Part shown: positions 1,205 through 10,171 of the stretch, in pieces
Layout: each line of letters opens with the position of its first letter
Position numbering within the stretch: the first letter of the stretch is position 1
From: Octadecabacter sp.
GTDB taxonomy: Bacteria > Pseudomonadota > Alphaproteobacteria > Rhodobacterales > Rhodobacteraceae
Direction of reading: 5' to 3'
Length of the DNA: 10,185 bases
NCBI GenBank assembly: GCA_003533975.1
Contig: DQCL01000231.1
Coordinates: 1 to 10,185, forward strand
Notes under the pieces: generated by a model
What the model was told of the DNA's origin: nothing
Seen by the model: only the letters and a program-made list of their open reading frames with translations
Database searches by the model: none
Made by a program: the position numbers and the translations under genes

Positions 1205-1218
1205 TTGATCTCGGTCAA
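1205..1218 (+). promoter_or_regulatory. FNR/FnrL-type box
   Basis: TTGATCTCGGTCAA matches the FNR consensus TTGATnnnnATCAA at nine of ten defined positions. Its centre is about 41 bases before a position near 1253, and AACAAT at 1241-1246 would serve as a -10 element. That is the geometry of a class II FNR-activated promoter. It lies about 150 bases before the start of the exported flavoprotein gene, the first of three redox genes, so oxygen-limited induction of that operon is a reasonable inference. The site touches the end of the IS66 fossil. A chance match in one short palindrome is possible. Confidence 0.45.
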
Positions 1219-1367: not shown

Positions 1368-2915
1368 ATGAGAAGTGACTTAGAAAGCAAGAAAACTGCT
1401 GGCCTTACTCGCCGCCAGTTATTGGGCACAGGTGCTGTTGCTGGTGCGACTTTGACACTGACCGGTATGGTCAATGCTGCCCCGCGTGAAATGCCCGAAA
1501 GTTGGGACGAGGAAGTTGATGTGGTCGTCATCGGCACCGGTTTTGCCGGACTCGCCGCAGCGTATGAAGCGACCAAAGCTGGCGCCTCGGTGGCATTGCT
1601 TGAAAAGATGCGTACACCTGGCGGAAATTCGATCATCAATGGTGGCGTAATTTCCGCGGCAGGGTCGCCGGAGCAAGCCGAACAAGGCATCGAGGACGGT
1701 CCCGATGCAATGTATTCGGATATGTTGAAAGCCGGGTTGGGGCTGAACCATCCGCAACTTGCACGAAAAGTCGCAGAAGAGTCCGCCGCAATAGTTCAGT
1801 GGACCATTGACGAGCTTGGCGTCGCGTATCGTGGCATGGTTCATATGGGCGGCCATGCGGTACCGCGCTCCTACGCAACCGCTGCGGGAAGCGGCTCTGG
1901 CATTGTGATCCCACAGCTTGAAAAGCTGGCAGAACTGGGTATTGAGCCGCGCACGGGCACGTTGCTCAAGCATCTGATCCGCGATGAAGACGGTCGCGTC
2001 AAAGGCGTCGAAGTTCAGGTTGGCTATCGTTTTCCCGATGCCGACAGCGGTGATCCAGTGAAGATCAAGGCCCGCCGTGCGGTCGTGCTCGCGACCGGCG
2101 GTTTTGGCAACGATGTCGACTATCGCATGATGCAGGACCCGCGCCTGACTGGCGAACTTGATACGACGAACCACCCCGGTGCAACCTCCGAAGCTTTGCG
2201 CGAAGCGATGAATATTGGTGGATCACTGATCCAACCTTCGTGGATTCAGCTTGGTCCTTGGACCAGCCCAGACGAACGCGGCTTTGGACTTGCACCTCAT
2301 TTTGTCCAAGGGGTCGCGGCTGCCTATGGGCTTTGGATTGAAACGACGACGGGTCAGCGGTTTGTGAACGAGATGGCGGATCGCAAGACGCGCGCCGATG
2401 CCATCATCGCAGCAGGCAACAAGGTCATCGCCTTCTGTGATGCTGGCGGTTTTGAGAAGGCAAAGACAGCACCGGGGGCCAAGCTTGACCGTTTGATGGA
2501 ATCGGGCGTTCTTAAGGAATACGCCTCGCTTGAAGAGATGGCGGCGGCATACGAAGTCCCGCTTGACGCGCTGCAAGAGACCATCGCGACTTTCAATGCT
2601 TCGGTAGCAGCGGGCGAAGACAGCGAGATGGGCCGCTATATGCAAGCTGACCAGTTCGCCATTGAAAACGCGCCCTACTACGCTGTGCGGCTTCTTCCGA
2701 AAATCCACCACACGATGGGCGGAATAGCCATCAACACAGAGGCGCAGGCGTTAGACGTAACCAACAGCGAACCCATCCCGGGTCTCTATGTCGCGGGTGA
2801 AGCGGCAGGCGGGGTGCATGGGGCGTCGCGGCTGGGATCCTGCGCTATTGCGGATTGCTTGGTCTTCGGACGGATCGCGGGCCGCAATGCCGCCGCAGAA
2901 GAAAGCTGGGATTGA
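1368..2915 (+). CDS. Tat-exported FAD subunit, flavocytochrome c / fumarate reductase family
   Basis: This 515-residue protein belongs to the FAD-binding family of soluble fumarate, urocanate and related enoate reductases, which transfer electrons from cytochrome hemes through FAD to an unsaturated acid in the periplasm. A twin-arginine signal is clear: TRRQLLG (14-20), a hydrophobic stretch, and a likely cleavage near residues 37-38. The FAD-binding loop GTGFAG (56-61) ends in an acidic residue, E79, and a second flavin segment is LATGGFG (241-247). Compared from memory with Shewanella FccA, the catalytic acid arginine (R402 there) is R339 in NEMADR, and H504 and R544 correspond to H448 (HHTMGG) and R488 (GASRLG). 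The substrate-site histidine H365 is replaced by G296, and the T-E-x-x-R proton-path stretch is not conserved. The acceptor is therefore probably not fumarate. AGGAGA at 1357-1362 sets the start. The heme partner is encoded immediately downstream rather than fused. Confidence 0.85.
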   Translation: MRSDLESKKTAGLTRRQLLGTGAVAGATLTLTGMVNAAPREMPESWDEEVDVVVIGTGFAGLAAAYEATKAGASVALLEKMRTPGGNSIINGGVISAAGSPEQAEQGIEDGPDAMYSDMLKAGLGLNHPQLARKVAEESAAIVQWTIDELGVAYRGMVHMGGHAVPRSYATAAGSGSGIVIPQLEKLAELGIEPRTGTLLKHLIRDEDGRVKGVEVQVGYRFPDADSGDPVKIKARRAVVLATGGFGNDVDYRMMQDPRLTGELDTTNHPGATSEALREAMNIGGSLIQPSWIQLGPWTSPDERGFGLAPHFVQGVAAAYGLWIETTTGQRFVNEMADRKTRADAIIAAGNKVIAFCDAGGFEKAKTAPGAKLDRLMESGVLKEYASLEEMAAAYEVPLDALQETIATFNASVAAGEDSEMGRYMQADQFAIENAPYYAVRLLPKIHHTMGGIAINTEAQALDVTNSEPIPGLYVAGEAAGGVHGASRLGSCAIADCLVFGRIAGRNAAAEESWD

Positions 2916-2977
2916 TGAAATGGCGTGGCGCTCGCAAGGGCGCCACATTTTGCCGAATGGGTGAGGGAAATGCATCG

Positions 2978-3649
2978 ATGATCTGGCTGCGGAGAAAACA
3001 TTTTGGCATCGCGGTGCTTGCATGGGCGACAGGCATTTTAGGGATCGCTTTCGCGGTGCCCTTTGGTGCCCACGCACAATCAGGATCGGCAACGGAAATT
3101 GAGTTCTCGATAGACTGCTCACCCCTTGGGGGCGAATCGTGCATCATTCTGGCCGAGAGTGGACAAGTGCGTGATCAGCGACAACTTGGCGCTGATATCG
3201 ACTCATTGCTGGGTCATGATGGGACGGCTGTTTCGGTTTTGAATGAATGCACCGGCTGCCATGTTGGCGAGTCCGTCTTGCCAGAGGGGCACATCGCGAC
3301 GCTTGGCATGCCGTTGGCCCATTGCCGAACCTGCCATACGCCGAACAGTGATCGGTCCTTGGCAGGTCTGGTGCCGCTTGACCATACGCATGCGCTTTCA
3401 GGTTTTGGATGCGCGTCCTGCCACGAACCGGCGCCTGCCACGATGCGGGAACCTGCAACCGAAGTCTGCTTGTCCTGCCATGGGTCCTTGGAAAGCCTGG
3501 CAACTCAGACTGCCGATGTAAAGCCGACCAATCCGCATAGCTCACCGCATGGGGCTCCCTTTGCCGAATGCACTTTGTGTCACATGCAACATGAGCCGTC
3601 TGATAACTTCTGCTCCACGTGTCACGATTTTGAATTCAATCTGCCGTGA
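2978..3649 (+). CDS. secreted hexaheme cytochrome c, tetraheme FccA-like C-terminus
   Basis: The chosen start gives a 223-residue protein with a standard Sec signal (MIWLRRKHFG, hydrophobic core, AHA cleavage at residue 33) and GAGGGAAA at 2963-2970. An upstream in-frame ATG at 2915 overlaps the flavoprotein stop (TGATG) and would add 21 residues; it spoils the signal peptide but cannot be excluded. Six CxxCH motifs bind covalent heme: residues 91, 116, 145, 164, 198 and 212 (first Cys of each). The last four, with the ending CSTCHDFEFNLP, match in spacing and sequence the tetraheme domain of Shewanella flavocytochrome c (which ends CDSCHSFDFNMP before the flavin domain). The first two form an extra diheme unit resembling the one in the next gene. 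Its likely role is to pass electrons to the FAD subunit in the periplasm. No lipobox is seen. Two further cysteines (47, 55) lie before the hemes. Confidence 0.85.
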   Translation: MIWLRRKHFGIAVLAWATGILGIAFAVPFGAHAQSGSATEIEFSIDCSPLGGESCIILAESGQVRDQRQLGADIDSLLGHDGTAVSVLNECTGCHVGESVLPEGHIATLGMPLAHCRTCHTPNSDRSLAGLVPLDHTHALSGFGCASCHEPAPATMREPATEVCLSCHGSLESLATQTADVKPTNPHSSPHGAPFAECTLCHMQHEPSDNFCSTCHDFEFNLP

Positions 3650-3697
3650 GGCGGCAATTGCAACCATAGCCAGAGGGCCAAAATAAGAGGACGAAAG

Positions 3698-5038
3698 ATG
3701 ATGAGACAGAATAAGTTGAGCGGAAAGTTACAGCGCAACGGGCTTCGTACCATGGTTGCCGTCACTGTGGGTTTATTCGCGAGTGTGGCGATGGCTAGCC
3801 CGAATTTTGGCGGCCAATGCACCTCTTGCCATCAAGATTCAACCAACCTACCAGCTGCGCACCCGCCGATTTCGTCAATGGAATCTGCACAGTGCTTGTC
3901 GTGCCACCAGACAAACAGCAATGCGGCGACAGGTGTTCTCGCGCCATCGCTGGCTGATATGCAGACCCAACACCAAACGCATACAAGTGAGCAAGAACAA
4001 GCCCAAGATCAACTGCAAACCCATACTCAGACACAGCTCATGATCGGGTATTCGGGCGAACCGAGGGAAGAGCATCGCGGGCAGACTGGAGGTGGGCATG
4101 GAAACCAAGCCCACGAGGGCCAATCCAGCCCTTGGTCATACGGCCTGACTTTAGGCATTCTTTCCAGCTCGGATATTGAGCAACACCGCTCCAATTCAAT
4201 TTTCCATGGCTCATCAGATGCTTCCTTCTTTCAGCCCGGCGCTGCGGGTGGCGGGCACGAAGCCGAAGATGATGCTGTGGCCGGAAACCGGGTGCATCTG
4301 GGTTTGCGCGCGGATTATGAATTGGGCCTTGGTGAGGGTACTTCGCTTACCTATGGCGCGAGGCTTAATTTTGACGAATTCCTCAACGAAGACTTCAACC
4401 GCACGAGCGCGCGTTTAAGCGTAAGATGGAAGGCGAAGTCCGAGGCTAGCATGCTCCAGCTAACGTCGTATTTGCAACAAACGATGTTTGAGGGTGCGCC
4501 CGAAAACACTGAAATCAACTTTACCGGATACGGTATCAACCTGAACTATCATCAAGACTTGACGGAGGGCACCATGGCAATCGCCGCACTTCGCGCCCGT
4601 CAACGGGACTATGATGGTGAATCAACCGCCCGAAATGCGGAATTCAGCCTGTCGCTCGGATTAAGAAATGCGCACCCAGATTTTGGCATATTGAATTATG
4701 GGCTGTCCTTCGTGAGTCGCAATAATGCCAAAAAAGAGCACAGTCGTTATAATGGCCCCTCGGTGTTTGCCTCCATCGACAAATCTGTTTCAGATACAAT
4801 GACGCTTGGCCTATCCGGCGAGCTCGGTGTACGCACCTACAAGGGCCCGGATTCTATCGCTTTCATCACGCGGTATGATAGATTTGCAGAGGCCGGTTTT
4901 TCGATCCGTGACACGCGGCTAAAGATCCTCTCTGTGACACCGGAATTTTCCTGTCACTACAACCTTACCCATTCAAACATAGATCGATTTGATGGCAATA
5001 GCTCTTACTGCGCTCTCGCGCTGGAAAGGCGGTTTTGA
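3698..5038 (+). CDS. diheme cytochrome fused to outer-membrane beta-barrel (Slam/DUF560-like end)
   Basis: This 446-residue protein has a Sec signal (cleavage after AMA, residue 33). Two CxxCH heme sites follow at 41-45 and 66-70, then a Gln/His/Thr-rich linker (about 88-147), then about 300 residues of alternating-polarity segments ending in Phe (LERRF), the usual signal for outer-membrane barrel insertion. The last 60 residues (…RYDRF…RDTRLKILSVTPEF…HSNIDRF…ERRF) resemble the end of the Slam/DUF560 barrel. Slam proteins carry a TPR domain in front; here two hemes stand in its place. Functional parallels are fused cytochrome-porins such as Cyc2, which has one heme. The protein may carry electrons across the outer membrane or help export a partner; both are inferences. 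AAGAGGA at 3685-3691 supports the start. It is probably co-transcribed with the cytochrome gene 48 bases upstream. Cys419 and Cys438 in the last strands are unusual for a barrel. Confidence 0.72.
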   Translation: MMRQNKLSGKLQRNGLRTMVAVTVGLFASVAMASPNFGGQCTSCHQDSTNLPAAHPPISSMESAQCLSCHQTNSNAATGVLAPSLADMQTQHQTHTSEQEQAQDQLQTHTQTQLMIGYSGEPREEHRGQTGGGHGNQAHEGQSSPWSYGLTLGILSSSDIEQHRSNSIFHGSSDASFFQPGAAGGGHEAEDDAVAGNRVHLGLRADYELGLGEGTSLTYGARLNFDEFLNEDFNRTSARLSVRWKAKSEASMLQLTSYLQQTMFEGAPENTEINFTGYGINLNYHQDLTEGTMAIAALRARQRDYDGESTARNAEFSLSLGLRNAHPDFGILNYGLSFVSRNNAKKEHSRYNGPSVFASIDKSVSDTMTLGLSGELGVRTYKGPDSIAFITRYDRFAEAGFSIRDTRLKILSVTPEFSCHYNLTHSNIDRFDGNSSYCALALERRF

Positions 5039-5097: not shown

Positions 5098-5129
5098 ATT
5101 GATAGGTGGAATGCGCTTGCGCAAAGGGG

Positions 5130-5165
5130 TCGGTTGAGCAAAACCCCGTGAGGTGCTCTGACCGA
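5130..5165 (+). terminator. imperfect hairpin downstream of the redox operon
   Basis: TCGGT (5130-5134) and GAGCA (5136-5140) pair with TGCTC (5154-5158) and ACCGA (5161-5165), giving ten base pairs with a small internal loop and a 13-base hairpin loop. Only a weak TTTGT follows, so intrinsic termination is doubtful. The position, about 90-130 bases past the last redox gene, is where a transcription end or RNA-stabilising structure would be expected. A competing pairing of GGGGT (5126-5130) with ACCCC (5143-5147) exists. Confidence 0.25.
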
Positions 5166-5793
5166 TTTGTCGGCCTTCCTCGCGGGATATTATAGCCCCA
5201 ATCATGGCATTGACAGCAAGCGTCTACCGATGGTGTGTGGGCGCGATGACAACTTTCGCACGCCAGATCACTCTTGTGCGAAGCGTGGGGGGGTGGCTCA
5301 ACTTCGGCAGGTCAGCGCAGCTATATCAGTGTTAACACCGTGACATGTTGTGCAGATTGCCGTTGGCGCCCACGATTGATGCCGTATTTCGTTATCCTGC
5401 ACGGACTGTTGGACGCGACTCTCATAGCTGCAATGTTCTGAGTAATCGAAATGGCGTTGTCATTGAATAGCGGCCAGCGGCGGACAGGTCGATTTGGGGA
5501 TGTCCGTTAACAGAACGCTGCCCTCCAAACCAAGCATGTCGCTACGTCGATAGCCGACATCCACATTCGCTTGAAACCAAGATGTACTCTGCACTGCCGC
5601 AAGTCGGCTCAGAGCCCAAACTGCAAAATGCTGCACTCATCACCGTACTGCCACCTGAGGCGTGATCGCTGCTGAACTGGCAGGCCTCAATGTTCTGAAA
5701 CCAGTAAACAGCAACTCGTCAGGATCCATTTGGTGCCCACGTTTCGGCGGAGACAGCACGACGCACGGCAAGTCAGCGCAGGAAACCCAATTC
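5166..5793. other. gene-free stretch, nothing recognised
   Basis: Neither strand holds a convincing coding frame here. The plus-strand open frame starting at 5662 runs into the antisense of the next gene and has no ribosome site. Minus-strand frames are broken every few dozen codons; the longest ATG-started one noticed is about 29 codons near 5735-5650. No tRNA, rRNA, CRISPR repeat or integrase core site was recognised. The stretch separates the redox operon from the mobilisation segment, so a junction of transferred DNA may lie in it, but no flanking direct repeat was found. Confidence 0.5.
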
Positions 5794-6660
5794 CTACATC
5801 TGCATCAGCTTGCTGGACACTATAATGGGATCCAAACCGACATAGATTTCGTTATTATTCGGCTCAGTACGATGCCCAGAATAGATTTCGCCCAACTTTC
5901 TCTCGATGGCAATCGCTTCCAACACGGTGCCGATCGGTTGATTGGTGTGTAATATCCACTGCTTCTCAATCGACATGCGATATTTGTTGAAACTATCCAC
6001 TCGTTCAACAGCGTTTTGAGCATGACCAATTTTGATCACGCGCCCGCCCTTGCCCAACGTGGCGATGTAGATGCTATTGGTCGCGCTAATATCAGGTTGT
6101 ACTGAATATTCCCTACCGGCGTAGGGATGTTTCTGCTGGAGTTGCTTCACTCTGGACTCTAGCGCTTTGAATCGCGGAGTCATAACCTCCAACTCTACTC
6201 CATTGGAGGCAATCAAGTCTTCGAGTGATTCAGCAAGCTCGTCGTGGAGTTCTTGTAGCGTCGAGATCGCTCGCTGAGTGTGGATATTTGGGCCGTAACC
6301 TGAAAGCTCTTTAAACTCGGGTGGCTCTTTAAATTTCCATGCTCTGATGGGTTGAATGGCAAAAGGCCACCGATAACTTCCGTCTTTCATCCTGTCCCAA
6401 CTGTGCTGTGCCTCGATGCCAAATTCAGCGGTGTCGGCTGTCATGTGGCTAATTTGCCAAGCACCGAAAACGCGGCCTTTGAGCTTTTCAGGTATTTCTA
6501 CGTTTGGATTTGTGGGGTTGCGGCTTACCACAGCGAAAACAAGGTCGCCCTCCTGTGATCCGCGAATAGCCATCGTCCGATTTGCCTTGCTAGTAAATAT
6601 AACGGGACCGCCACGGTTTTCATTTCCACCCCAGACATACGTGTAAAAGACATTGGTCAT
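5794..6660 (-). CDS. EVE/PUA-like domain fused to GIY-YIG nuclease-like domain
   Basis: The protein has 288 residues, with the start at 6660 supported by GAGGAAA six bases upstream. The C-terminal part (about 196-277) has the layout of GIY-YIG proteins of the T5orf172/MUG113 type: SIYIA (Tyr198), then VIKIG (209-212), an arginine in AVERVDSF (R220), a helix with a probable catalytic Glu (E253 in AIERKL) and EIYVGL near the end (E271). The N-terminal part (about 1-135) resembles PUA-like EVE domains: a leading strand with Trp10, EGDLVFAVVS (37-46), a GRVFGAW strand (62-68) and WPFAIQPIRAW (98-108). EVE domains in restriction systems recognise modified bases. A helical linker (about 130-180) joins the two. 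A modification-dependent nuclease or a DNA-processing defence protein is a plausible inference. No methylase or other defence partner is seen beside it. It lies back to back with the mobilisation genes, so it is probably cargo of the same element. Confidence 0.6.
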   Translation of the reverse strand: MTNVFYTYVWGGNENRGGPVIFTSKANRTMAIRGSQEGDLVFAVVSRNPTNPNVEIPEKLKGRVFGAWQISHMTADTAEFGIEAQHSWDRMKDGSYRWPFAIQPIRAWKFKEPPEFKELSGYGPNIHTQRAISTLQELHDELAESLEDLIASNGVELEVMTPRFKALESRVKQLQQKHPYAGREYSVQPDISATNSIYIATLGKGGRVIKIGHAQNAVERVDSFNKYRMSIEKQWILHTNQPIGTVLEAIAIERKLGEIYSGHRTEPNNNEIYVGLDPIIVSSKLMQM

Positions 6661-7003: not shown

Positions 7004-7126
7004 CTGGACTCTCTATTTGAAGTTTTAGAAGAATGGGAAAGCCACCTCAAGGGAATTGAGATTGATATCCCCAGCTCAGAATCTCGAACGCCTCAGGCGC
7101 CTCGTTTGCGGGGGCCATCGCTATGA
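7004..7126 (+). CDS. cryptic 40-codon ORF overlapping mobC start (CTG start?)
   Basis: A frame open from 6977 ends in a TGA (7124-7126) that overlaps the mobC ATG (ATGA), the usual arrangement for translational coupling. It contains no ATG, GTG or TTG start. The only near-cognate start after a good ribosome site (GAGGGAG, 6993-6999) is CTG at 7004, four bases downstream. The product would be an acidic, leucine-rich helix (DSLFEVLEEWESHLKG) followed by a polar tail ending RLRGPSL. The helix pattern looks like real protein. A single change (CTG to ATG) would give a normal gene, so this is either a rare CTG start or a decayed leader gene of the mob operon. Not recognised as any family. Confidence 0.35.
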   Translation: MDSLFEVLEEWESHLKGIEIDIPSSESRTPQAPRLRGPSL

Positions 7127-7566
7127 ATCATGCAGAAAACATCAAGACCGCAATAGATATTAAGTCTGCGTTTCGGGGAAAATCTCAGGCAGTTGAAAAG
7201 AAACCAAAACCATCGCAGTCCCCGATAACTCTTCGTGTGACGGATGAAGAGAGAGAACGCCTCAAATCTATGGCTGCGGGCATGTCCGTGAGTGCATATG
7301 TCCGCAAATGCATCTTTTCGGAGAATGCCACAAGGCGGAAACGGCGGTCACACATGCCTGTGAAAGATCAGGAAGCAATGGCGCGGGCTTTGGCTTTGCT
7401 GGGAGCATCACGGATTGCAAATAACCTGAACCAACTGGCTCACAAGGCCAATATGGGTTCCTTGATCATGGATGATAATGCCCTCGCACAAATTGATGAA
7501 ACTTATGCGCATGTGCGCCTAATGCGGGATGAACTGGTTTCCGCGCTAGGCCTGATTGAAGGTTAG
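7123..7566 (+). CDS. mobC: MobC-like relaxosome accessory protein
   Basis: This 147-residue protein has the two hallmarks of MobC. The first is a ribbon-helix-helix DNA-binding unit: the strand ITLRVTDEERERLKSMA (about 35-51) followed by the helix MSVSAYVRKCIF (54-65). The second is the MobC segment LGASRIANNLNQLAHKANMG (93-112). MobC proteins bind oriT, help open the strands and assist the relaxase encoded next to them. The N-terminal 30 residues are basic and probably disordered. The relaxase start follows the stop by only four bases, so the two genes are co-transcribed. The ATGA overlap with the preceding short frame suggests coupled translation. Binding to the GGTGAC repeats about 200 bases upstream is likely but inferred. 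Confidence 0.85.
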   Translation: MNHAENIKTAIDIKSAFRGKSQAVEKKPKPSQSPITLRVTDEERERLKSMAAGMSVSAYVRKCIFSENATRRKRRSHMPVKDQEAMARALALLGASRIANNLNQLAHKANMGSLIMDDNALAQIDETYAHVRLMRDELVSALGLIEG

Positions 7567-7570
7567 GCGC

Positions 7571-10171
7571 ATGATCCTGAAAGCCTCTCAACGGGGTGGC
7601 GGGATGCAACTTGCTGTGCATCTGCTGAAACCTGAAAACGAACATGTAGAATTGCATGAGATCAGCGGCTTTGTCGCTGATGATTTGGCAGGTGCATTCA
7701 AAGAGGTTTATGCGATTTCCAAAGGGACGCGCTGCAAGCAGTTTTTGTTTTCGCTGAGCCTTAACCCGCCGGAAATGGAAAATGTACCGGTTGAGGTCTT
7801 TGAAGATGTGATTGCACGGATTGAAGCCCAAATGGGGTTGGCGGGGCAACCTCGTGCAATCGTCTTTCATGAAAAGCAGGGTCGCAGGCATGCGCATTGT
7901 GTCTGGTCGCGGATTGATGCGGCAAAAATGAAAGCGATCAACCTGCCGCATTTCAAATTGAAACTTACTGAACTCTCGCGCCAAATCTATCTGGAACAGG
8001 GCTGGGATATGCCGCGCGGGTTGGAAGATTTTGCTGACCGTGATCCGCTAAATTATTCCCAAGCAGAAGCGCAGCAGGCCAAGCGCGTCAAACGCGATGC
8101 GCGGGCGTTGAAAGCAACATTCCAGAAATGCTGGGCTGGGTCGGATTCCCGTGCCGCGTTTGCGCATGCACTGAAAGAACAAGGGTTCGTTCTGGCTCGG
8201 GGGGATCGACGCGGATTTATCGCTGTTGATGCCACGGGCGAGGTTTACGCCATTGCGCGTTGGGTTGGCGTTAAAACCAAAGAGGTGCGGGCGCGGTTGG
8301 GCGATCTTGAAGGTCTGCCCAATGTCGAAGACGCCATTGCCATTCTGTCCCGTAGTTTTGACGCCAATAATTTTGAAACTCAGCAACGTGTTTCAGCGCA
8401 AAATGAGCGGCGCAAGGAAACACTGGAGAAAAAACGTCTTTCCTTAGTGGCAGAACAGCGTGGTGAGCGTAAAGATTTGGGCGATATGCAGCAGACTCGT
8501 CTTGCTGTGGAAACCACTGCCCGCATGGCAAGCCTGCCAACGGGTTTGAAAGCAACATGGGCAAAGATGACCGGGGCGTATCAACGCCTCTGTGCAGATA
8601 ATGAAGCGCAGATCAATGAGGCGTTACGGCGTGATCGGCACGAACGGCAGGCCCTTATTCAACGCCACCTGAAAGTTCGGCGCGCTCTGCAACATGAATT
8701 TGAGCAATTTGAATACCATCGTGAACTGAACGCCAAATCAGCACAACGTGATATTGACGCAAGATTACCTGATGCAGAATTCCCCCCTGAACAGGTGCCT
8801 TTGCATCCTGAATATGATCCTGCGCAACCGCTTATTATTCAGCCCGAAGATGACACGTTTTCCATTGCCGAAAAAGTTGCGCGTGATCCGGCGCATATTC
8901 TGGAAGTGATCGCGGATAAGAAGGAAGCCTTCACTCGCGCCGATATTTTGCGCGCTCTGGTGCAATATATTCCTGATCCGACTAAACTGCGTGGCGCAGC
9001 AGATGCGGCTTTGCGTTCACCTGATTTAATTGAGGTAAAATCTGGGCCAGAACCACGTTACTCAACGCAAGAATTCCTAAGCACCAAAGCCACATTGTCG
9101 GCGAATGCGCGCGTAATGGCGTCAAGCTCTGCGCCTTCAGTTTCGCGCAAACATATAGAAGCTGCCATCGCCAAGGAAAACGCCGCTCTCCAAAAATCTG
9201 TAGGGGCAAACCTGAGTGCAGAACAAGAAACCGCCATCCGTCACGTTCTGACCTCGGGGCAATTATCCTACGTCATTGGTCTGGCGGGGGCGGGTAAATG
9301 TACAATGCTATCAGCAGCGCGTCACGCATGGGAAAAGCAGGGGTTTCAGGTCATCGGGGCGGCGCTTTCGGGTAAAGCTGCCGACGGTCTGGAAACAGCT
9401 TCTGGTATTGAAAGCCGAACTTTGGCTTCTTTGGAATATAGCTGGCACAACGGCTATAATTTGCTGACCAGAAACTCGGTGCTGGTGATTGATGAAGCGG
9501 GGATGGTTGGCACCAAGCAACTGGCGCGATTTGTGAGTGCAGCCAAGAAAAGCGGTGCCACGCTGGTTTTGGTTGGTGATCCTGAACAGTTACAACCTAT
9601 TCAGGCCGGTAGGCCGTTCAAGGATATTGCGCAGGATAGTGGTGCTGCACGTCTTACTGAAATTCGTCGCCAAAGACAGGAATGGCAACGCCAAGCCTCA
9701 AGCCATCTGGCAGAGGGGCGTTGCGCCGATGCGATTGACACCTACCGGCAACAGGGCTTTGTCAGCACTGCCATTGATATGCCTGAGGCCATCGCCAAAC
9801 TGGCTCAAGATTATGTGACAGATATGGAATTGAACGGTTTGGACGTTTCTCGGCTGGCTCTGACCCATCGCCGCAAAGATGTGCATGCAATCAACCAAGC
9901 CATTCGTTCCTTGCGTAAATCCGGCGATAATCTAGCGGTGGAAACCTTGTTCCAGACCGAGCACGGCCCGCGCGCTTTCGCTGTTGGTGATCGTGTTATC
10001 TTCACCCGAAATGGCCGTGATCTTGGCGTGAAGAATGGTAGCTTCGGTGTGGTTGAAGGAATTGATAGTGACCAACTTCGTGTGCGCATGGATACCGATG
10101 GCAGTGATAAAGCCAGATCAGTCACAATAATGCCAGATCACTACAATGCCAGATCACTACGCCGCGTTTGA
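7571..10171 (+). CDS. MOBP-type relaxase fused to TraA-like helicase, 3' end frameshifted
   Basis: This enzyme cuts one strand at oriT and, through its helicase half, would unwind it for conjugal transfer. The start at ATG 7571 gives MILKASQRGGG, the usual beginning of this relaxase group; a TTG at 7556 overlaps mobC and is less likely. Residues 1-150 form the relaxase fold, with the metal-binding histidines H100, H107 and H109 in HEKQGRRHAH. A conserved middle region (about 170-260) and a charged coiled coil (about 270-400) follow. From about 435 onward it matches the helicase half of Ti-type TraA: Walker A GLAGAGKCT (570-578, Cys577 where Ser is usual), Walker B VIDEAG (D641, E642) and motif III GDPEQLQ (669-675). 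A 16-bp tandem duplication at 10129-10160 shifts the frame and ends the protein after 866 residues. It loses the DHGYA…HKSQG and SRH-type motifs V and VI. Removing one copy restores an open frame to the window edge. Confidence 0.82.
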   Translation: MILKASQRGGGMQLAVHLLKPENEHVELHEISGFVADDLAGAFKEVYAISKGTRCKQFLFSLSLNPPEMENVPVEVFEDVIARIEAQMGLAGQPRAIVFHEKQGRRHAHCVWSRIDAAKMKAINLPHFKLKLTELSRQIYLEQGWDMPRGLEDFADRDPLNYSQAEAQQAKRVKRDARALKATFQKCWAGSDSRAAFAHALKEQGFVLARGDRRGFIAVDATGEVYAIARWVGVKTKEVRARLGDLEGLPNVEDAIAILSRSFDANNFETQQRVSAQNERRKETLEKKRLSLVAEQRGERKDLGDMQQTRLAVETTARMASLPTGLKATWAKMTGAYQRLCADNEAQINEALRRDRHERQALIQRHLKVRRALQHEFEQFEYHRELNAKSAQRDIDARLPDAEFPPEQVPLHPEYDPAQPLIIQPEDDTFSIAEKVARDPAHILEVIADKKEAFTRADILRALVQYIPDPTKLRGAADAALRSPDLIEVKSGPEPRYSTQEFLSTKATLSANARVMASSSAPSVSRKHIEAAIAKENAALQKSVGANLSAEQETAIRHVLTSGQLSYVIGLAGAGKCTMLSAARHAWEKQGFQVIGAALSGKAADGLETASGIESRTLASLEYSWHNGYNLLTRNSVLVIDEAGMVGTKQLARFVSAAKKSGATLVLVGDPEQLQPIQAGRPFKDIAQDSGAARLTEIRRQRQEWQRQASSHLAEGRCADAIDTYRQQGFVSTAIDMPEAIAKLAQDYVTDMELNGLDVSRLALTHRRKDVHAINQAIRSLRKSGDNLAVETLFQTEHGPRAFAVGDRVIFTRNGRDLGVKNGSFGVVEGIDSDQLRVRMDTDGSDKARSVTIMPDHYNARSLRRV
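10129..10160 (+). repeat. 16-bp tandem duplication causing frameshift
   Basis: AATGCCAGATCACTAC occurs twice in direct succession (10129-10144 and 10145-10160). Sixteen bases is not a multiple of three, so the second copy changes the frame and the relaxase-helicase stops at 10169-10171. With one copy removed the frame reads IMPDHYAAFDHGYA, the sequence expected at this point in TraA-type helicases. A partial third match (GCCAGATCA) sits just upstream at 10112-10120, which may have favoured slippage. Confidence 0.9.

Follow-up and report, generated by a model that had tools for sequence, protein, structure and literature searches.

The 10,185-nucleotide contig DQCL01000231.1 of an Octadecabacter sp. 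assembly (GCA_003533975.1), referred to here as the window, carries a real, conserved small module of three genes at positions 1368-5038, in which two genes of known kind, for a flavoprotein (FLAV) and a multiheme cytochrome (CYT6), are joined by a third, for a novel SlipAM barrel variant (BARREL). The window is the entire contig (C273 in our numbering) of a source assembly of 2.66 Mb that is 79% complete. All three genes lie on the plus strand with intergenic gaps of 62 and 48 nt, and their motifs, domains and gaps confirm the operon-like set of a Tat flavoprotein, a hexaheme cytochrome and a diheme barrel that a preliminary description of this DNA had proposed. We favor, at a probability of about one half, the reading that the genes encode an FNR-controlled periplasmic reductase module with a dock at the outer membrane.

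FLAV (1368..2915, plus strand) is predicted to be an enoate reductase that is exported by Tat, uses flavin adenine dinucleotide (FAD) and belongs to the flavocytochrome c family. It carries the twin-arginine signal LTRRQLLG, has matches above cut-off to FAD_binding_2 and to TIGR01813, the model for flavocytochrome c, and is devoid of any CxxCH, so that it has no fused tetraheme domain, unlike Fcc3, the periplasmic fumarate reductase of Shewanella, whose flavin domain is homologous to it (E=2e-69). Residues R339, H448 and R488 of FLAV align to the Fcc3 residues for proton transfer and for one carboxylate, and neither His nor Thr is found at the positions aligned with Fcc3 His365 and Thr377, which, in the numbering we assume for Fcc3, hold the second carboxylate of fumarate. 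At the position of the fumarate reductase His, FLAV has a Trp (W298), as does the reductase Mrd of Geobacter sulfurreducens AM-1, in which the catalytic residues are R353, H461 and R501 and a Trp replaces the His at 311 (PMC4427408). Compared via the residue numbers printed in that paper and not via the Mrd sequence, the spacing from Trp to His is 150 and from His to Arg 40 in both proteins, and from Trp to the other Arg 41 in FLAV vs 42 in Mrd; Mrd position 324, a Val for Ser/Thr, has its counterpart in the FLAV stretch LAPHFVQ, where the alignment column is uncertain. Together, W298 and the replaced His365 and Thr377 argue against the fumarate-type reductase that had been suggested for this gene. 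Conservation of the pocket is high: of 484 homologues at E 1e-150, the 120 among the matches listed have QLGPW and HH[CT]MGG throughout (120/120 each), the RLG motif in 119/120 and the strict NE[LM]ADR pattern around R339 in 102/120, and among these listed homologues are proteins of Smithella- and Syntrophales-type bacteria that share 58-62% identity. The probable role of FLAV is the reduction of small unsaturated acids when oxygen is low.

CYT6 (about 2978..3649, plus strand) has a Sec-like signal, an N-terminal arm with a cysteine pair and six CxxCH motifs, the final four of which match Cytochrom_c3_2 (58 bits; cut-off, 25); its start codon was judged by eye from an upstream GAGGG stretch and the hydrophobic signal. 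A chance origin of the heme motifs in the module is unlikely, as evidenced by sequence shuffles. The arm that precedes the hemes contains at least two non-heme cysteines in 6/6 copies from genomes that also have the barrel, while the counts are 0, 0 and 1 in the barrel-less genomes G182, G167 and G104, and 0 in G261, where the contig ends just 3' of CYT6. By its residues and layout, the FLAV-CYT6 pair looks like the known Mrd-Mcc system.

BARREL (3698..5038, plus strand) consists of a signal peptide, a c-type diheme segment (CTSCH and CLSCH), a Q/H-rich linker and a predicted 14-strand SlipAM barrel that terminates in F. The SlipAM (Slam/DUF560) model scores 42.6 bits in the window and 34.7, 25.7, 34.6, 36.6 and 24.0 bits at the loci L035, L036, L037, L038 and L013, respectively, against a cut-off of 22; precomputed Pfam lists place it on the related proteins P0001, P0002 and P0005 and not on P0003 or the fragment P0004. 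No tetratricopeptide repeat (TPR) was detected in the window protein at E 1 or in its five orthologues at E 0.01, so that the heme barrels are 6/6 SlipAM without TPR, whereas 8/8 of the heme-free relatives scanned combine TPR and SlipAM. The two heme-binding motifs expected from the preliminary description hold up across the family, as both CxxCH, and with them an [LM]PxxH histidine between the two, are retained in 8/9 distinct barrel sequences; L013 has one CxxCH. Furthermore, all eight distinct sequences that reach the C-terminus end in RF. AlphaFold2 models built from six sequences show a 14-strand barrel, which supports the outer-membrane-type fold that had been proposed, and among the matches listed the closest folds are the porins OmpG and Klebsiella CymA. 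Note that a solved Slam-type barrel was absent from the matches listed in this fold search (50 rows), from which we draw no conclusion.

In a tree of 31 barrel domains, the 10 heme-bearing rows form one group at 100/100 support vs 21 heme-free rows; among the rows P0003 and L013 are near copies and P0004 is a fragment, P0001, one residue off the window protein, was omitted, and the tree program gave a long-branch warning for three heme-free rows. The gene directly 5' of the barrel is lipoprotein-like, with a lipobox, in 7/21 heme-free SlipAM loci, a count that derives from a crude scan with short flanks and in which L025 is doubtful; a TbpB-type domain in these upstream genes scores above cut-off at L074, below it at L020, and is not seen at L006 and L023. 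In 5/6 heme-barrel loci this place is occupied by a cytochrome with 6 or 8 hemes, the exception being L013, and in the same crude scan the frames 5' of the barrel were free of a lipobox in the window, L035, L036, L037 and L013, with L038 yielding a short overlapping frame only. Judged by its sequence, BARREL is a SlipAM barrel in which a c-type diheme domain replaces the TPRs, and as such a new variant within the SlipAM family. In the open-access literature covered, none of the papers listed for DUF560/type XI together with cytochromes has a heme-bearing member by title or abstract, and no paper joins 'surface lipoprotein assembly modifier' with 'cytochrome'; the word 'cytochrome' is also absent from the main text of PMC12282271, which surveyed type XI cargo in 2025. 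At L036 (10149-10997) the cytochrome gene encodes eight CxxCH, with an extra segment ahead of the six hemes. This segment resembles the diheme part of BARREL (36.6% over barrel residues 22-107), a hint at the route by which the barrel may have acquired its heme domain.

Across 394 genomes of the family the barrel profile matched 15 at E 1e-10, of which five have the heme-bearing form, namely the window and G302, G287, G348 and G357 (Tropicibacter oceani, of the same bacterial family as the window); barrel frames in the other ten are without CxxCH, the one at L026 running to the contig end. FLAV was found at E 1e-120 in 9/394 genomes, each with a CYT6 relative (9/9), and all five heme-barrel genomes are among these nine; the chance of this overlap is 1.6e-9 under the assumption, not valid here, of independent genomes. 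The order FLAV-CYT6-BARREL on one strand is present in the window and in G302, G287 and G348 (loci L035, L036 and L037), or 4/9 FLAV genomes. The search for co-occurrence in the same order that had been put forward earlier thus finds the genes linked in three other family genomes, not unlinked in all relatives, and bears out the three genes as a conserved unit. In the FLAV tree, rows from barrel-bearing genomes do not form a single clade. Among 61 relatives sampled, seven had barrel matches at E 0.001, with the window as the only heme-bearing one, and the heme form was found in 0/18 other genomes of the window's genus. Besides the window, a sample of the class gave 2/385 matches at E 1e-20, both heme-free and with TPR, and a sample of the phylum gave 0/398; barrel relatives were likewise absent from PLSDB plasmids and from IMG/VR. 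Of two scans of genome contigs the first gave none and the second three loci, including L013. The candidates L014 and L015 were dropped as barrel relatives, as they reach 38-40% over 54 residues.

Upstream of FLAV, the palindrome TTGATctcgGTCAA (1205..1218, plus strand) lies 149 nt 5' of the start codon and deviates by one mismatch from the FNR/Dnr-type consensus TTGAT-N4-ATCAA as cited in PMC5398030. Such sites with at most one mismatch precede FLAV in 7/9 loci, and in six of them (window, L035, L036, L049, L050 and L052) the distance is 112-163 nt, counted from start codons chosen by script. At L037 a perfect site lies 422 nt 5' of FLAV, and the remnant of another FLAV gene's 5' end (about 12175-12333), itself broken, is located between this site and the intact gene. 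The background amounts to 30 sites in 414,922 positions of partly overlapping DNA, or 0.029 per 400 nt. A further FNR-type site is found at -129 of the L013 barrel, and the CYT6 gene of L038 is preceded at -72 by a site with two mismatches. With Mrd-like reductases behind FNR-type sites in Rhodobacteraceae, a role at low oxygen becomes testable in cultured strains.

In the reading that we favor, low oxygen would switch on the module under the control of FNR, and FLAV, exported to the periplasm by Tat, would act on alpha,beta-unsaturated monocarboxylates, acrylate- or methacrylate-like or larger, and reduce their double bond, but not that of fumarate. CYT6 would supply FLAV with electrons, and the periplasmic diheme domain of BARREL would hold CYT6, and hence the reductase, against the outer membrane on its inner face. 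The contact of BARREL and CYT6 may be heme-to-heme, perhaps aided by the N-terminal cysteine arm of CYT6, and the two proteins would exchange electrons. That two heme-binding sites replace the usual docking part of this protein-export family, in a cluster with the reductase and its carrier, hints that such enzymes may be connected to the outer membrane in a manner not yet described.

Several results weigh against this reading. Two FLAV loci, L053 of T. oceani and L051 of G104, are without an FNR-type site of at most one mismatch; L053 has TTAAC-N4-GTCAA only, a form that is reported as an Fnr site (PMC5398030). In the genomes G182, G167 and G104, FLAV-CYT6 is present without any barrel match at E 0.01, so that the reductase can work without the barrel. 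In T. oceani a plasmid carries FLAV-CYT6, and BARREL lies on the chromosome next to another CYT6 copy; in favor of the dock, this chromosomal pair is without FLAV, so that barrel and cytochrome are the tighter pair. Because three of the nine FLAV genomes lack a heme barrel and FLAV and barrel are unlinked in T. oceani, BARREL appears to be an add-on rather than an essential part. At L013 the one-CxxCH barrel adjoins a different flavoprotein (28% identity to FLAV), from which it is divergent, and a tetraheme protein; a TorA-type gene scores above cut-off there, and torD- and torC-like genes score below theirs. Moreover, the heme domain was not resolved in the barrel model, and the cysteine-arm pattern, which covers ten sequences, may follow descent. 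A DMSP (dimethylsulfoniopropionate) lyase family scores above cut-off in 2/9 FLAV genomes vs 124/295 family genomes and is thus not enriched in the former; this enzyme is a source of acrylate, and acrylate from DMSP is therefore unsupported as the substrate.

A bolder reading than the dock takes BARREL for an electron port, where a small extracellular reductant or oxidant would enter the 14-strand pore and exchange electrons with plug hemes, and these in turn with CYT6, so that FLAV would be fed from outside. We consider this possible but unlikely. The usual donor for such reductases is a protein of the NapC/CymA family, and none was found in 7/9 FLAV genomes, the window included (two of the seven, the window and G261, are only 75-79% complete). 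Nevertheless, the barrel-less G182 and G104 are also without this family; another donor must therefore exist, and the rival readings are not separated by this count. An N-terminal heme domain on a barrel is the layout of the fused cytochrome-porin Cyc2 (PMC8406198), but BARREL lacks the Cyc2 signature motif AXPXFAR[Q/K][T/Y] before CXXCH, where the window reads ASPNFGGQCTSCH, and it has two hemes only, both of which precede the barrel in sequence. In Shewanella, electrons from an electrode do reach the periplasmic FccA via outer-membrane cytochromes, although CymA and the quinone pool carry the larger part of this inward flow (PMC3032769). If this doubtful reading were right, a secretion-family barrel would have been turned into a small heme-plugged port in the outer membrane, connected on one side to an extracellular electron donor or acceptor and on the other, via the hexaheme protein, to an enoate reductase of the periplasm, in a compact, partly plasmid-borne system of marine Rhodobacteraceae unrelated to Mtr and Cyc2.

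That the barrel merely admits the unsaturated acid as a porin, with hemes that are structural or without role, is quite improbable. The porin-like fold and the persistence of the L013 barrel with its single heme motif agree with it, but the retention of both CxxCH and of the [LM]PxxH histidine in 8/9 distinct sequences does not, nor does the T. oceani barrel, whose linked gene is that of a cytochrome instead of FLAV. We regard it as very unlikely that BARREL is a type XI secretion protein with a redox cargo and exports or surface-displays CYT6, its upstream neighbor in the cargo position. This would fit a SlipAM barrel with the CYT6 gene in place of the lipoprotein gene of heme-free relatives, but multiheme c-type cytochromes such as CYT6 acquire their hemes and fold in the periplasm, and CYT6 has no lipobox in the crude scan. 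CYT6 also ends in heme motifs and not in the eight-stranded cargo barrel of type XI (PMC8406197), and the gene directly upstream encodes the cytochrome (5/6 loci), in place of the adjacent cargo gene of type XI systems, whose product would have a lipoprotein signal or a barrel of the TbpB type. As NilB tolerates loss of its entire N-terminal domain (PMC8406197), the lack of TPRs is by itself not enough to dismiss secretion; conversely, PF04575 is also assigned to exopolysaccharide exporters of the PgaA type (PMC8406197), and therefore the domain alone is no proof of secretion ancestry.

The remainder of the window contains mobilization genes, a NikA/MobC-like protein followed by a TraA-type relaxase/helicase (7123-10171). 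These genes, the plasmid-borne FLAV-CYT6 of T. oceani and the absence of the module from the 18 genus genomes suggest that it travels on plasmids. Close to the end of the contig, at 10130-10160, two copies of a 15-base stretch follow each other closely, and the relaxase frame stops early there with respect to the TraA model; this may be a mutation or an assembly effect. On the other side, an NAD(P)-binding NmrA/SDR-type protein is encoded at 165-935, divergent from the module. A protein of 288 aa, whose match to T5orf172 is weak and below threshold, is encoded on the opposite strand at 5794-6660, and the minus strand at 5099-5311 has an open frame of 71 codons with two CxxCH, possibly by chance. 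The flanks of the listed loci show no common neighbors outside the module in the output of a home-made gene picker that missed many genes and is not a proper annotation. In the region 3862-11251 of L013 the barrel occurs with another reductase, a TorA-type set, and two lipoprotein-like genes without Pfam match at E 0.1 lie further 3'.

We know of no outer-membrane redox system in this bacterial group, and the preliminary description held the composition of the module to be without a described parallel. For the flavoprotein and cytochrome this does not stand, as Mrd-Mcc is likewise a single unit of a heme-free Tat flavoprotein followed by a Sec multiheme cytochrome, with the same R/H/R catalytic residues and the Trp in place of the fumarate reductase His (PMC4427408). 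Mcc has 4-7 hemes, compared to six in CYT6, and a substrate is demonstrated for Mrd only, that of FLAV being assigned as a class from its residues. The Mrd-Mcc unit includes no outer-membrane gene, and a GTP cyclohydrolase gene is placed 3' of mcc (PMC4427408). Fcc3 shares the flavin domain, and the tail of CYT6 matches the tetraheme c3-type family; FLAV and CYT6 are, however, separate polypeptides, and the fumarate-specific residues are not kept. For the heme barrel the claim of novelty stands within the SlipAM/DUF560 family. Like the type XI outer-membrane proteins (Slam, NilB, DUF560/PF04575), BARREL has a SlipAM barrel, and the heme barrels form their own branch beside heme-free members of the same bacterial family, but a diheme c-type segment takes the place of the TPR repeats and a cytochrome gene stands upstream. 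Conduits of the MtrAB/PioAB type also encode a barrel together with a multiheme cytochrome, yet MtrB and PioB are 26-strand barrels that enclose a decaheme protein (PMC8406198); the BARREL model has 14 strands, and the window contains no decaheme frame. Cyc2, a small heme-bearing porin that oxidizes iron, shares the N-terminal c-type heme on an outer-membrane barrel, but has one heme and 16 strands, as opposed to two heme motifs, 14 predicted strands and a SlipAM match in BARREL (PMC8406198). BARREL thus has covalent-heme motifs where its relatives have TPRs and a multiheme cytochrome gene where several of them have a lipoprotein gene, and if its hemes work, it would add to Mtr-type complexes and Cyc2 a further, independent means of placing redox centers at the outer membrane.

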